Source: a virus | Virus record (IMG/VR): IMGVR_UViG_3300006923_000170 | Coordinates: 1 to 20,259 of that record | Length of the DNA stretch: 20,259 nucleotides | Reading direction: 5' to 3' (one strand) | Shown here: piece after piece, positions 3,761 to 14,529 of the stretch | How the letters are laid out: every line of letters begins with the position of its first letter | Position numbering within the stretch: position 1 is the first letter of the stretch | Made by a program: the position numbers and the translations under genes | Notes under the pieces: generated by a model | Told to the model about the DNA's origin: nothing | Database searches by the model: none | The model's input: the letters and a program-made list of their open reading frames with translations, nothing else

Positions 3761-5796
3761 TGCTGCTGATCCTCTTGTGGTGGAGGCTGTGCCGGGGGCG
3801 CATTCATCTGTATCAGCATTTGCTGCTCTGCATCGCCCATTAAGAATTGGTCAATTTCGATATCCATCGCGCGACCAAGCGCATCCATGTAGGCGTTGTA
3901 CGGACCAGTCACTCCGCTCATCATTGCTTGCTGAATCACAGGCAGGATGTACTGACCTACGTCAGTTAGCTGGGATATGATCGTGTCTTTGTTTGGCTTG
4001 CGGGCTGTGCCTGCTTCGACCCTGTAGCGAAAGTCTCTAGTGATTCTGGAAACATCATCAGTGAGGATTTGTTCTGCAAAGACCCTTGCTGCTGTGTTCC
4101 CCACAACAGGTTGCACGTCATCAAACTCTGCCAAGAACCTCATCGCTTGAATCTCCCTGGTCGCCGAGAGGCTCAGCCAGTCCTCCACTCGCGATGCCAT
4201 GTCGTCTGGCCTGACGTTGATGTTCTGCTGGCGATACTGAGCTTCCGCCGCAGACCTCATCTGCCTTGATGACTGCCCGTACATCAATTCCGTCAGTCCG
4301 AGAGATTTGTCGATTTGGGCGTTTGTCTGCTGAACCATCGTCCAAATATCTATCGAGAAATTTGGAGACTGCAAGAAGCTGATCGAATCGTTGATGCTCT
4401 TGCCGCTAATCCTCTCTATGTCGATGACCGAGAATGGGCCTTTCCCGCTTGTCAGTTGCGAGCGAATGTTCTCGCCTGCTTCCTTCATCACGCCAACATA
4501 GGTCTTGCTCCCGGCGGCAACCTTGTCAGCAATGAAAGACATGCACCAGTTGACAAACTTCAGTAACCCGATGCACGGCTTAATCATCGAGATCGGCCAG
4601 ATCTCTCCTGGCTTGTTGTAGAACGACAGGCGGCAGATGGGCCAACCTCCGTCGCTCATGTAGTCATCCCAGTAAGGGACAGACCATGAAGTTTGCTCAA
4701 GGATTAGGTCGCGGTCTCCTGTCTCAAGAACTTCCGGCGAAAGATTTAGCGGGTACTTGCATTGCTCGCAGATTGCGAGGTAGACAAAATCGCCCAGCTC
4801 ATCCAGTCCATTCACTCTCCTGTCTTTTTCGTTGAGCTTGATATTTTGACCAGCTCCGTTCTTGGAGTAGACCTCCCAGTACTCAACCAAATCATGCGTT
4901 GTTCCAGCATACGAGCCATCGCCGTTGCGCTTGCGGTTCCGAGAGTTGTCCGCTGCGGAAAGCCTTGCGTATTTGCCTTTCAATGACCCCTTTGGGAGGT
5001 TGAATTTCTCTTCGACTAGATTGACTGGCTCGCAGCTCCGTAAAGCGATCCAAGTGCAGTCTCTCCAGTACTTGGCGTCTGGATCAACAAGTAGATCCTT
5101 GTTCGATCTGTATCTGCTCCTTGCGATCTTCGGCCCTCCTCCTGGCGGCTGCTCAACCTTGACTTCCATCAGGCCAAGGCCAGTGATGATCGCTTCGGTG
5201 ATCGCAAGGCGCGCTTCGTCTTGCTTGCTCCCTTCTTGCTGGATGTAGTTTGAGATCCTTTCCAGTATATGAGCATGGTCGCGATCGATGGCGCTTGCCT
5301 TCTCGTCGACGTTAATAGACTGCTGGTAGTTCTGCACTAACTGCTGATAGGTAGCGACAAGCCCAGGGTCGTCGACAATGCCCTGCTGTATGGCTTGGCC
5401 CATTTCCAAGATCTGCATGGCTTCGATGTTCCCAGCGTAAAATGTCTCAATGGAGACCTCTGGGTTTTCTCGTGGCGTGACAGCAATGATTGGGTTTTGG
5501 TGATACAAAACAGGACCAAACATAGCGACCGCTTCAAACAGTCGGTTTACCGACATCTCAAACTGAGGCAACTGCACGTCTGGGGAGAGGAAACCGTCGT
5601 GACCTCCCCCTTTACTTCGCATGGATGACCACATGTGATTGGCGGGGCCGTCGTAGAAAGCCATCGCTTCGTCCGCATATGCGTCGAACTTTCGCTTCCT
5701 GTCTTTCCTTGCAGCGGAGAACACTCGCTTCCAGCGATCTACGATCGGCTCAAGCGGGTACTTTCTTGGCTTTGCTGGAGTTCCGTATTCGTCCAT
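3757..5796 (-). CDS. Phage portal protein
   Basis: A 679-residue protein. The ATG at 5796 has an AGGAC site about 6 bases upstream, 8 bases after the preceding stop. The portal is the ring at the capsid vertex through which the terminase packages DNA. Portal-like features include the N-terminal helical region (WKRVFSAARKDRKRKFD), a central beta-rich region with the WSVPYWDDYMSDGGWPICRL type of layout, and a conserved-looking stem segment at about 500-524 (GLTELMYGQSSRQMRSAAEA) followed by long helices. The C-terminus is Gln/Pro-rich (about 645-679). The length is near that of P22-like portals (about 700). It lies one small gene after the large terminase, the standard pairing. The family call comes from overall pattern and context; the exact portal type is uncertain. 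Confidence 0.85.
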   Translation of the reverse strand: MDEYGTPAKPRKYPLEPIVDRWKRVFSAARKDRKRKFDAYADEAMAFYDGPANHMWSSMRSKGGGHDGFLSPDVQLPQFEMSVNRLFEAVAMFGPVLYHQNPIIAVTPRENPEVSIETFYAGNIEAMQILEMGQAIQQGIVDDPGLVATYQQLVQNYQQSINVDEKASAIDRDHAHILERISNYIQQEGSKQDEARLAITEAIITGLGLMEVKVEQPPGGGPKIARSRYRSNKDLLVDPDAKYWRDCTWIALRSCEPVNLVEEKFNLPKGSLKGKYARLSAADNSRNRKRNGDGSYAGTTHDLVEYWEVYSKNGAGQNIKLNEKDRRVNGLDELGDFVYLAICEQCKYPLNLSPEVLETGDRDLILEQTSWSVPYWDDYMSDGGWPICRLSFYNKPGEIWPISMIKPCIGLLKFVNWCMSFIADKVAAGSKTYVGVMKEAGENIRSQLTSGKGPFSVIDIERISGKSINDSISFLQSPNFSIDIWTMVQQTNAQIDKSLGLTELMYGQSSRQMRSAAEAQYRQQNINVRPDDMASRVEDWLSLSATREIQAMRFLAEFDDVQPVVGNTAARVFAEQILTDDVSRITRDFRYRVEAGTARKPNKDTIISQLTDVGQYILPVIQQAMMSGVTGPYNAYMDALGRAMDIEIDQFLMGDAEQQMLIQMNAPPAQPPPQEDQQQ

Positions 5797-13133: not shown

Positions 13134-13209
13134 TCCATTTGATCTCGTCGTAGTTGGTGTAATACCGCTCCCTGTTCACCGGGCGCGGAGAATCGCCTTT
13201 CCCGGCCAT
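12979..13209 (-). CDS. KGD-type small conserved protein with out-of-frame extension
   Basis: The N-terminus MAGKGDSPRPVNRERYYTNY and the following DEIKWN match a small conserved phage/bacterial protein type ('KGDKPRPV...Y..NYD.I.W') that usually ends soon after this point. The ATG at 13209 overlaps the previous stop (TAATG) and has a GGGAGGA site about 6 bases upstream, so the start is well supported. Here the frame stays open for about 50 more codons (76 residues in all), which overlap the next gene in a different frame. The extension is Cys/Gln-rich and looks like a shadow of the overlapping gene. The function of the family is unknown. Confidence 0.6.
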   Translation of the reverse strand: MAGKGDSPRPVNRERYYTNYDEIKWNVRSESDCSRCSFGCQYFARTGLVCYPQPVQPESQSICVRDQGKKDDQDTG

Positions 13210-13304
13210 TACAAGTCCTCCCTAAGCGGGGAGCGGGAAATCAAGAGGACCAGCAGGCTGGCTGACAAGGCAAGAAAACCGACTAGGCAGAGGGCGCTAC
13301 TCAT
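13209..13304 (-). CDS. 31-residue membrane peptide
   Basis: A small gene coding for 31 residues. The ATG at 13304 overlaps the previous stop (ATGA) and the TAA at 13209 overlaps the next start (TAATG), so it fills the gap exactly. An AGGGAG site lies 8 bases upstream. Residues about 5-24 (LCLVGFLALSASLLVLLIS) are a single membrane helix, followed by a polar end (RSPLREDL). The exact fit between two coupled junctions and the clear membrane helix support it as real. Its role is unknown; small single-span phage peptides can regulate membrane proteins. Confidence 0.6.
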   Translation of the reverse strand: MSSALCLVGFLALSASLLVLLISRSPLREDL

Positions 13305-13321
13305 TTCAATTTCTCCCTTGC
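13301..13321 (-). promoter_or_regulatory. Coupling cassette copy 3 (AREKLK-stop / membrane peptide start)
   Basis: The third copy of the 21-base unit. It encodes AREKLK-stop and starts the 31-residue membrane peptide through ATGA. The ribosome site is GGGAGA instead of GGGAGG, so initiation may be somewhat weaker. Confidence 0.65.
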
Positions 13322-13633
13322 ATTCATTACGTCAGTCCAGTCGCCAGCGCCGCCAATTTCATTAAACGCATCCACCGCATCGAGCAGGTCTTGCACGAGT
13401 TCATCTCGCGTCTTGGGGTTGCTTGTCTTGATGCGTATGTAATCGCCGTCAGGTAGTTCACTACACCGATACACAAATATCGGAGTTCCATTGACGTGGT
13501 AGCCTTCGCACTTTCCCCAGTGCATATTCGATTCTCGCATGACAGGTCCGTGCCATAACTCATTCGTCGCATGATCCAAAAACATCGCGGGACTGTCGTA
13601 AGTCGTATCGTCGAAGAACTTTCGCTCACTCAT
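13301..13633 (-). CDS. Array gene 3: unique N-terminus plus shared C-terminal module
   Basis: A 110-residue protein. The ATG at 13633 overlaps the previous stop (ATGA) with a GGAGG site 7 bases upstream; the in-frame start at 13672 is rejected. Residues 1-70 are unique, with His, Trp and Cys residues (HATNELWHG, NMHWGKCEGYHVNG) and beta-like strands. Residues 75-110 (starting TRDELVQDLLD) match the last 36 residues of the next gene in the array at 18 of 36 positions and share the pattern V-M-x-A-R-E-x-L-K at the end. The nucleotide sequence of that end also carries the coupling signal for the 31-residue gene. The function is unknown. Confidence 0.75.
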   Translation of the reverse strand: MSERKFFDDTTYDSPAMFLDHATNELWHGPVMRESNMHWGKCEGYHVNGTPIFVYRCSELPDGDYIRIKTSNPKTRDELVQDLLDAVDAFNEIGGAGDWTDVMNAREKLK

Positions 13634-13650
13634 TTCAATTCCTCCCTTGC
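13630..13650 (-). promoter_or_regulatory. Coupling cassette copy 2 (AREELK-stop / next start)
   Basis: The same 21-base unit at the next junction: AREELK-stop overlapping ATGA, with GGAGG ending 7 bases before the ATG. It differs from copy 3 at one base (G/A at the tenth position). Reuse at successive junctions suggests duplication of the module together with its coupling signal. Confidence 0.7.
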
Positions 13651-13911
13651 TTGCATCACTTTCACTTTCCATTCGTATATCCGCAGTAACTTGCCCTGGT
13701 CAATTACATCCAGCAGGTCTTGGACCAGTTCCTCTCTAGTTTTTGGTGGCGGAACATACGGTGGCGGTGCGGGCATCCATGGGTCACCCAGTTTGATACT
13801 GCGCGCTTGGTTCCAGTCGATATGATGCTTGGGGCCGTCGGAAGGCACCAATACATCGCCGTCCTCGTCACATTCATACTCCCACGGCAGTCGATCAATA
13901 ATCCAACTCAT
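13630..13911 (-). CDS. Array gene 2: Pro-rich N-terminus plus shared C-terminal module
   Basis: A 93-residue protein. The ATG at 13911 overlaps the previous stop (ATGA) with a GGAGG site 7 bases upstream. The N-terminus (about 1-30) is acidic with aromatic residues (WIIDRLPWEYECDEDGD). A Pro-rich linker (APPPYVPPPK, 48-57) leads into the 36-residue shared module (58-93, TREELVQDLLDVID ... AREELK). The linker suggests two separate parts: a variable recognition piece and a common helical tail. The function is unknown; the module might mediate oligomerisation or binding to one common partner. Confidence 0.75.
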   Translation of the reverse strand: MSWIIDRLPWEYECDEDGDVLVPSDGPKHHIDWNQARSIKLGDPWMPAPPPYVPPPKTREELVQDLLDVIDQGKLLRIYEWKVKVMQAREELK

Positions 13912-13928
13912 CTCAGCTCCTCCCTTGC
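13908..13928 (-). promoter_or_regulatory. Coupling cassette copy 1 (AREELR-stop / next start)
   Basis: A 21-base unit that reads GCAAGGGAGG...ATGA on the minus strand. It encodes Ala-Arg-Glu-Glu-Leu-Arg-stop of one gene and at the same time supplies the AGGGAGG ribosome site, a 7-base spacer and the overlapping ATG of the next gene. It differs from copy 2 at three bases. Confidence 0.7.
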
Positions 13929-14132
13929 TTCAACAACTCTGTCGATCCACTGCGACTGTTGCTGTGGGTCAGAGTGTTTGCCATTGGCATCGATCACGCC
14001 GAGCAGGCTTCTCATCCGCTGGATGGCTTCCGCAGCATCGTCGCAGTCAAAGCAGATCTGGTGGTCAATGTCGTCCCGATTTGCGTGTTCACGAAGGTCG
14101 TCAACAAGACGTTTGTACTTAGGGTGTGCCAT
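13908..14132 (-). CDS. Array gene 1: small helical protein with shared C-terminal module
   Basis: A 74-residue protein with ATG at 14132 and an AGAGGAGAG site upstream, overlapping the resolvase end by 14 bases. It is mostly helical: KYKRLVDDLREHANRDDID, then CFDCDD, then AAEAIQRMRSLLGVIDANGK. The end (LLGVID ... SQWIDRVVEAREELR) is a more distant version of the module in the next two genes, with an insertion before the Trp. The last codons again form the Shine-Dalgarno and ATGA signal for the next gene. The function is unknown. Confidence 0.72.
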   Translation of the reverse strand: MAHPKYKRLVDDLREHANRDDIDHQICFDCDDAAEAIQRMRSLLGVIDANGKHSDPQQQSQWIDRVVEAREELR

Positions 14133-14529
14133 TGATCTCTCCTCTTGGCCTCATGACTTCTTCCGGTGGCTGTTCGGAAAGGCTGTCGATTACGCCAGTC
14201 GCATCGAGCAAGCCATCCCGACTGGGTGCTGCGGATGCCTTGACCAGATCAAGGTACTCCCACCAAGTAATCAGCACCAAGCTCTCACCCGAGTCTTCGC
14301 GAAACGCTACAGCGTCCACGTTTTCGTTTGGGCAAAGGAACTTGGCAATCTTCTTTCGGCGCTTGGCTTGGATTCTCTTTCCATGCACAAGTAGGTCGAC
14401 CTCTTCGTGCATGCCAAGGCTTCTACCATCACTGGCGTACGCACGCTTTGATTCAAGGCCGCTCTCTTTCGCTTGATTGACCAACTCCCTCTCGTAGGTG
14501 TTGCCTTTTCTTTTGCTTGCGCTTGTCAT
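14119..14529 (-). CDS. Hjc-like Holliday junction resolvase / PD-(D/E)XK nuclease
   Basis: A 136-residue protein. The ATG at 14529 overlaps the previous stop (ATGA) with a GAGGTG site 6 bases upstream. The N-terminal pattern KRKGNTYERELVNQAKESGL (Glu13 or Glu15), then RAYASDGRSLGMHEEVDLLV (Asp45) and RIQAKRRK (Gln54-x-Lys56) fits the archaeal Hjc-type resolvase fold, with Gln in place of the usual Glu in ExK. QxK variants are known in the PD-(D/E)XK superfamily. The C-terminal 40 residues are polar and variable. It would cut branched DNA during phage replication or before packaging, in line with the nearby exonuclease and helicase. Family confidence is good; junction specificity is not proven. 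Confidence 0.75.
   Translation of the reverse strand: MTSASKRKGNTYERELVNQAKESGLESKRAYASDGRSLGMHEEVDLLVHGKRIQAKRRKKIAKFLCPNENVDAVAFREDSGESLVLITWWEYLDLVKASAAPSRDGLLDATGVIDSLSEQPPEEVMRPRGEINGTP

Follow-up and report, generated by a model that had tools for sequence, protein, structure and literature searches.

A C-terminal module of small phage genes whose last codons appear to form the initiation site of the next gene

Results

The array genes and their junctions

The window analyzed here, the whole 20,259-base record of an uncultivated phage, contains a head-to-tail array of three small genes, a1, a2 and a3, all on the minus strand, each overlapping its successor by ATGA and lying downstream of a gene for a RusA-like resolvase. 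The features of this region are the following.

14119..14529, minus strand: gene for a RusA-like Holliday junction resolvase, preceding the array (phrog_244, E 2.6e-6)
13908..14132, minus strand: gene a1, 74 aa, ending VVEAREELR (...WIDRVVEAREELR); weakly assigned to the module once the tail is left out
13908..13928, minus strand: a1/a2 junction, GCAAGGGAGGAGCTGAGATGA, coding for AREELR and stop, with the Shine-Dalgarno sequence GGGAGG, a 7-base spacer and the ATG of a2
13630..13911, minus strand: gene a2, 93 aa, ending VMQAREELK; C-terminal module TREELVQDLLDVIDQGKLLRIYEWKVKVMQAREELK
13630..13740, minus strand: a2 module including the stop codon, 36 codons
13630..13650, minus strand: a2/a3 junction, GCAAGGGAGGAATTGAAATGA
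13301..13633, minus strand: gene a3, 110 aa, ending VMNAREKLK; C-terminal module TRDELVQDLLDAVDAFNEIGGAGDWTDVMNAREKLK
13301..13411, minus strand: a3 module including the stop codon, 36 codons
13301..13321, minus strand: junction of a3 with a 31-aa ORF, GCAAGGGAGAAATTGAAATGA
13209..13304, minus strand: the 31-aa hydrophobic ORF, MSSALCLVGFLALSASLLVLLISRSPLREDL and stop, successor of a3; its own successor is overlapped as TAATG

The phrog_244 profile match covers residues 1-99 of the 136 in the window resolvase, most of the protein. At three window junctions the stop and start codons overlap in the NTGA manner expected of ATGA-coupled pairs, and a Shine-Dalgarno sequence lies inside the upstream gene at a suitable spacing: GGAGG, seven bases and ATG at two of the junctions, AGGGAG at the third. 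The initial annotation of this DNA had described 21-base junction units that combine AGGGAG with the ATGA of the next gene, as well as a closing protein pattern A-R-E-[EK]-L-[KR]-stop; the former are present as stated at all three junctions, and the latter occurs as AREELR in a1, AREELK in a2 and AREKLK in a3. The 3' end of the 31-aa ORF again reads AGGGAGGACTTG (protein end LREDL and stop), which is the ribosome-binding tail minus the module.

Two further ORFs of the window on the minus strand, 13209-12979 and 13133-12846 (MAGKGDSPRPVNRE... and MSEAKAIARVVRSVV...), share about 155 bases in different frames, an unusually long overlap. A relative of the second is present in the related phage L016 (4830-5117), where it too overlaps an upstream ORF, a different one.

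Homology of the module

A search of the record with a2 recovered the a3 module at E 3.2e-6. The two proteins have a local alignment score of 86, against 50 for the best of 2000 shuffles, and after removal of the last seven residues the score is still 71, against a shuffle maximum of 49; a P-K-T-R linker precedes the module in both. To judge from these alignments, the 36-residue module of a2 and a3 is a true homology that extends past the tail, and a resemblance of a few residues by chance is ruled out for this pair. The case of a1 is different. Without the tail, 893 of 2000 shuffles reach the score of a1 against a2, 60 of 3000 reach its score against a leave-one-out profile, and profiles trained on just one of two phages, the window phage and its relative L016, recognize the modules of the other (a2, a3 and the L016 copies) but not a1. 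Nearly all of the a1 signal lies in the tail, and its membership is weakly suggested by these scores. The common module that had been attributed to all three genes is thus upheld for two of them. The N-terminal parts of a1, a2 and a3 resemble each other at the chance level in local scores against shuffles, and relatedness between them is not detectable; at the sequence level, this bears out the earlier description of these parts as unrelated. The C-terminus of the window resolvase (SRDGLLDATGVIDSLSEQPPEEVMRPRGEINGTP, 14119-14200) may be a decayed copy of the module; 21 of 3000 shuffles score equally well.

Database searches matched the module to no Pfam or PHROG family and to no convincing PDB sequence; the Pfam family Unstab_antitox (PF09720) scored 13.8 bits, below its gathering cut-off of 23.3, and was rejected. 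Single-protein scans of viral contigs found no match to a1 or a2 and, for a3, a lone match in a 2435-aa protein (L003) that is probably due to chance, and tblastn of a2 and of the second array gene of L016 (g2) in INPHARED was without a match. In 100 genomes from a single bacterial phylum, the module profile had just weak partial matches, inside long ORFs. The divergence within the module alignment is too high for a pattern scan. AlphaFold modeled a3 with low confidence (mean pLDDT 59.7), placing helices at 76-92 and 99-109 and, also with low confidence, strands ahead of the module. The module is thus predicted to be a helical hairpin, most likely a small part for interaction or oligomerization.

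Gain, loss, fusion and doubling in related phages

A set of related phages was reached through the terminase. In one of these, L016, the same region has four modules in three genes. The first copy is fused to the C-terminus of the RusA-like resolvase (DAIDNCVGVCIDEEWRKVNEAREALRGDE), which matches phrog_244 like its window relative and carries the module in addition; the next gene, g2, has two modules in tandem, and the gene after it, g3, has one. A fold search with a model of the resolvase plus its module gave no significant PDB match, and we claim no fold for it. The first of the tandem copies lies inside its gene and is not followed by a start, and the module on the resolvase has a shifted, -8 overlap with the next gene; the module and the ATGA junction are therefore not inseparable. 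The junction sequence also recurs internally, as GCACGGGAGGATTTAGCTGGCGATGATGA, between the tandem modules at 3320-3370 of L016, which suggests an in-frame fusion of two coupled genes.

The corresponding region of L012-L014, L019, L022 and more distant relatives lacks the module, and it was found in none of 80 loci fetched with the resolvase except L025, the same contig as L016. In L110, the N-terminal part of g2 recurs (76% over 54 residues), as does that of g3 (67%), both on genes without the module that likewise carry the ribosome site of the next gene. The N-terminal parts of all three module-bearing L016 genes, the resolvase and two others, are found elsewhere without the module. Since L110 and other relatives have matching N-terminal domains and no module, this element is, on the evidence of gene content, a detachable and duplicating C-terminal or 3'-end piece that varies in number and in partner. 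The initial annotation had proposed that the module duplicates and swaps N-terminal parts, and had advised a search for relatives in which the array genes differ in number or order; both are borne out by the four modules of L016 and their absence from L110. Just two phage genomes are known to carry the module family of the window, with a1 a weak member.

Codons of the ribosome site

In the A-R-E columns of the window modules, wherever residues are identical so are their codons (9 of 9 comparisons), as against 12 of 31 in the rest of the module, and the corresponding figures in L016 are 18 of 18 and 32 of 54; these comparisons depend on one another, and a recent common origin is another possible source of synonymous identity. 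The arginine codon differs between the two phages (AGG versus CGG), and GGGAG is kept either way. The comparison of synonymous sites that the initial annotation had called for thus indicates that codons are fixed within the ribosome site and not in the rest of the module, a result that is supporting rather than decisive because of this lack of independence.

The meaning of the tail

Gene ends that serve as the ribosome site of the next gene are common in phages and quite ordinary: we counted 177 ATGA junctions with a ribosome site within the upstream gene, representing 128 distinct tails in 102 loci. Unrelated phage genes at such junctions end in RE[EKDR][LI][KR], for example AREELK on L005 and AREKLK on L007, and tails such as FREKIK, FREKLR and FRERLK belong to an unrelated 60-aa family (L047-L082) with a similar site in the same frame. 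Because the same kind of site occurs in the same frame on unrelated genes, the tail is no evidence of protein homology; AREEL[KR] is, by this comparison, mostly the AGGGAG site and ATGA as read in that frame, a convergence and no family signature. The closing motif consequently fails as a mark of the module, recurring as it does on these genes and, as LREDL, on the 31-aa ORF of the window.

The 60-aa family itself, MIQITKWLNPDDETWYKGTYITTxEWLMIEKxRLxK...AIFREKIK and stop, was observed in L047, L054-L056, L063-L064, L073, L077 and L082. Its conserved last residues read as the ribosome site of the next gene.

The same layout in other module families

A search with the L016 junction pattern led to 34 contigs, about half of which bear another module, LxxALxRIRDxxFxxTLPDRMDAVRxIAREALE, that terminates various small genes and has a GCACGGGAGGCACTGGAATGA junction (uncultivated phages L128-L152). 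In L138/L139 three copies are packed into about 1 kb; L131, L134, L145 and L152 have two each. The search pattern contained the ATGA junction, which biases the coupling rate of these loci upward; three copies recovered by the profile alone are also coupled, one of them through TAATG, and one profile-only copy has R replaced by Q (CGG to CAG) with AGGAGG kept. Over all loci and the window, the profile of this family had no match to the window or L016 module. In INPHARED, tblastn found no convincing member, and the family is known here only from IMG/VR contigs.

In a second, phrog_1273-like family, LIAAAPELLEAL...ARAAIxKALGE, the next gene is overlapped or abutted in 9 of 11 annotated cases, as against 31 of 78 neighbor pairs (Fisher p 0.011). 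The last codons of its members (GGAGAAACAAAATGA, GGGGAGGAGTGATG) are the ribosome site and start of the next gene, and in some records the depositors placed the next ribosome site within the KALGE-type gene. Aligned with the window module, this family has an hhalign probability of 6%, and its profile matches neither the window nor L016. The layout is thus found in three apparently unrelated families, with duplication in two of them.

Public phage records probably contain unannotated small ORFs with starts that overlap KALGE-type stops (L104, 3063 onward; L126, 2041 onward), and at 2900-3147 of L120 the KALGE-type gene itself is likely to be unannotated.

Discussion

Translational coupling by overlapping stop and start codons (ATGA, -4 spacing) has been reviewed (PMC12548453), and termination-reinitiation is likewise described (PMC6728339). 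The window array has the -4 overlap, the Shine-Dalgarno sequence inside the upstream gene and the serial small genes of the reviewed cases. The difference is that the junction is there the property of a gene pair (PMC12548453), whereas in the window it appears to travel with a duplicated protein module; the string "duplicat" has no occurrence in the main text of that review. A literature search for earlier descriptions of such a system returned just general work on coupling and individual phages. Each ingredient is known, and it is the combination, a detachable and duplicating C-terminal module that is also the initiation site of the next gene, that we did not find described. The initial annotation likewise knew of no described system of this kind; the layout, however, is not unique, as the KALGE and IAREALE families share it. 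The IRD...DRMDAVRxIAREALE module resembles that of the window in its different N-terminal parts, its common C-terminal module and its arrays of two or three, and is unlike it in that the profiles do not cross-match. In the NAxLIAAAPELLEAL...ARAAIxKALGE family, the end of the C-terminal module is the ribosome site and start of the next gene, as in the window, but there is no detectable homology and the family occupies one place per record among the hits. The arrangement is thus a recurrent variant of ordinary translational coupling.

We consider it probable that several small phage genes have acquired, at their 3' ends, copies of a predicted helical-hairpin module of about 36 residues, and that the last codons of this module constitute the Shine-Dalgarno site, the spacer and the ATGA for the next gene. 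This interpretation builds on features read directly from the DNA: module homology, separability, duplication, an embedded ribosome site and synonymous fixation. On being duplicated, or joined by recombination to a new N-terminal part, the module would supply the following gene with a functional initiation site, so that the insertion or swapping of small genes would leave the chain of translation unbroken, and copied ends would be easy to tolerate, as the next start signal travels along. The tail would be conserved mainly because the ribosome site is under selection and of common descent; the remainder of the module is a homologous protein part. In this phage, coupling would proceed by termination-reinitiation or by re-binding at the embedded site, and recombination at 3' ends would presumably be the route of spread. 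The "portable coupling cassette" of the initial annotation captures a separable, duplicating piece with a synonymously fixed site; it overreaches in that the tail recurs on unrelated genes, the membership of a1 depends on that tail, L016 has its exceptions and the layout is not unique.

There is a real possibility, though one short of an even chance, that the module is a protein part only, an oligomerization or docking tag for a shared partner, and that the embedded ribosome site is a packing default with no role in its spread. The abundance of ATGA junctions with embedded sites would fit such a default, as would the module-less L110 genes that also hold the next ribosome site and the persistence of an internal L016 copy with no start behind it; the synonymous fixation of the ribosome-site codons and the recurrence of the layout in module families without detectable homology argue against it. 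It is improbable that a1-a3 are full-length paralogues produced by plain gene duplication, with fast N-terminal divergence and a C-terminus preserved through its function and the ribosome site. The three genes are adjacent and of similar size, and a2 and a3 share their linker, but the chance-level similarity of the N-terminal parts, the strands tentatively predicted before the a3 module, and the L016 modules on a resolvase and two other N-terminal parts, all existing elsewhere module-free, speak against this. Least probable of all is convergence only, in which the shared ends would be a common AGGGAG...ATGA ribosome site in one frame and no module would exist: it accounts for a1 as well as homology does, and unrelated genes do end alike, but it is refuted for a2, a3 and the L016 modules, which are alike well upstream of the ribosome site.

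If a copied module does provide the next initiation site, it offers a concrete route by which phages could accumulate and shuffle operons of small genes. A broader generalization strikes us as rather doubtful: that there is a class of phage 3'-end cassettes, C-terminal modules of several independent origins that have spread by gene-end recombination because they carry the next initiation site. Were it true, such cassettes would let phages add and shuffle small early genes while the translation of the operon is kept. For the short C-terminal motifs common to small phage proteins, part of the conservation may be that of a ribosome site and not of protein function; in annotation, AREEL- or KALGE-type tails alone are no proof of protein homology.

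A shared-tail pair with another kind of junction was observed in another phage, L009, where two adjacent minus-strand genes (94 and 99 aa, starting at 5172 and 5468 in the numbering of the reversed locus) have a common C-terminal module that closes with YNYYINK; their last 24 bases are identical, and TAG follows.
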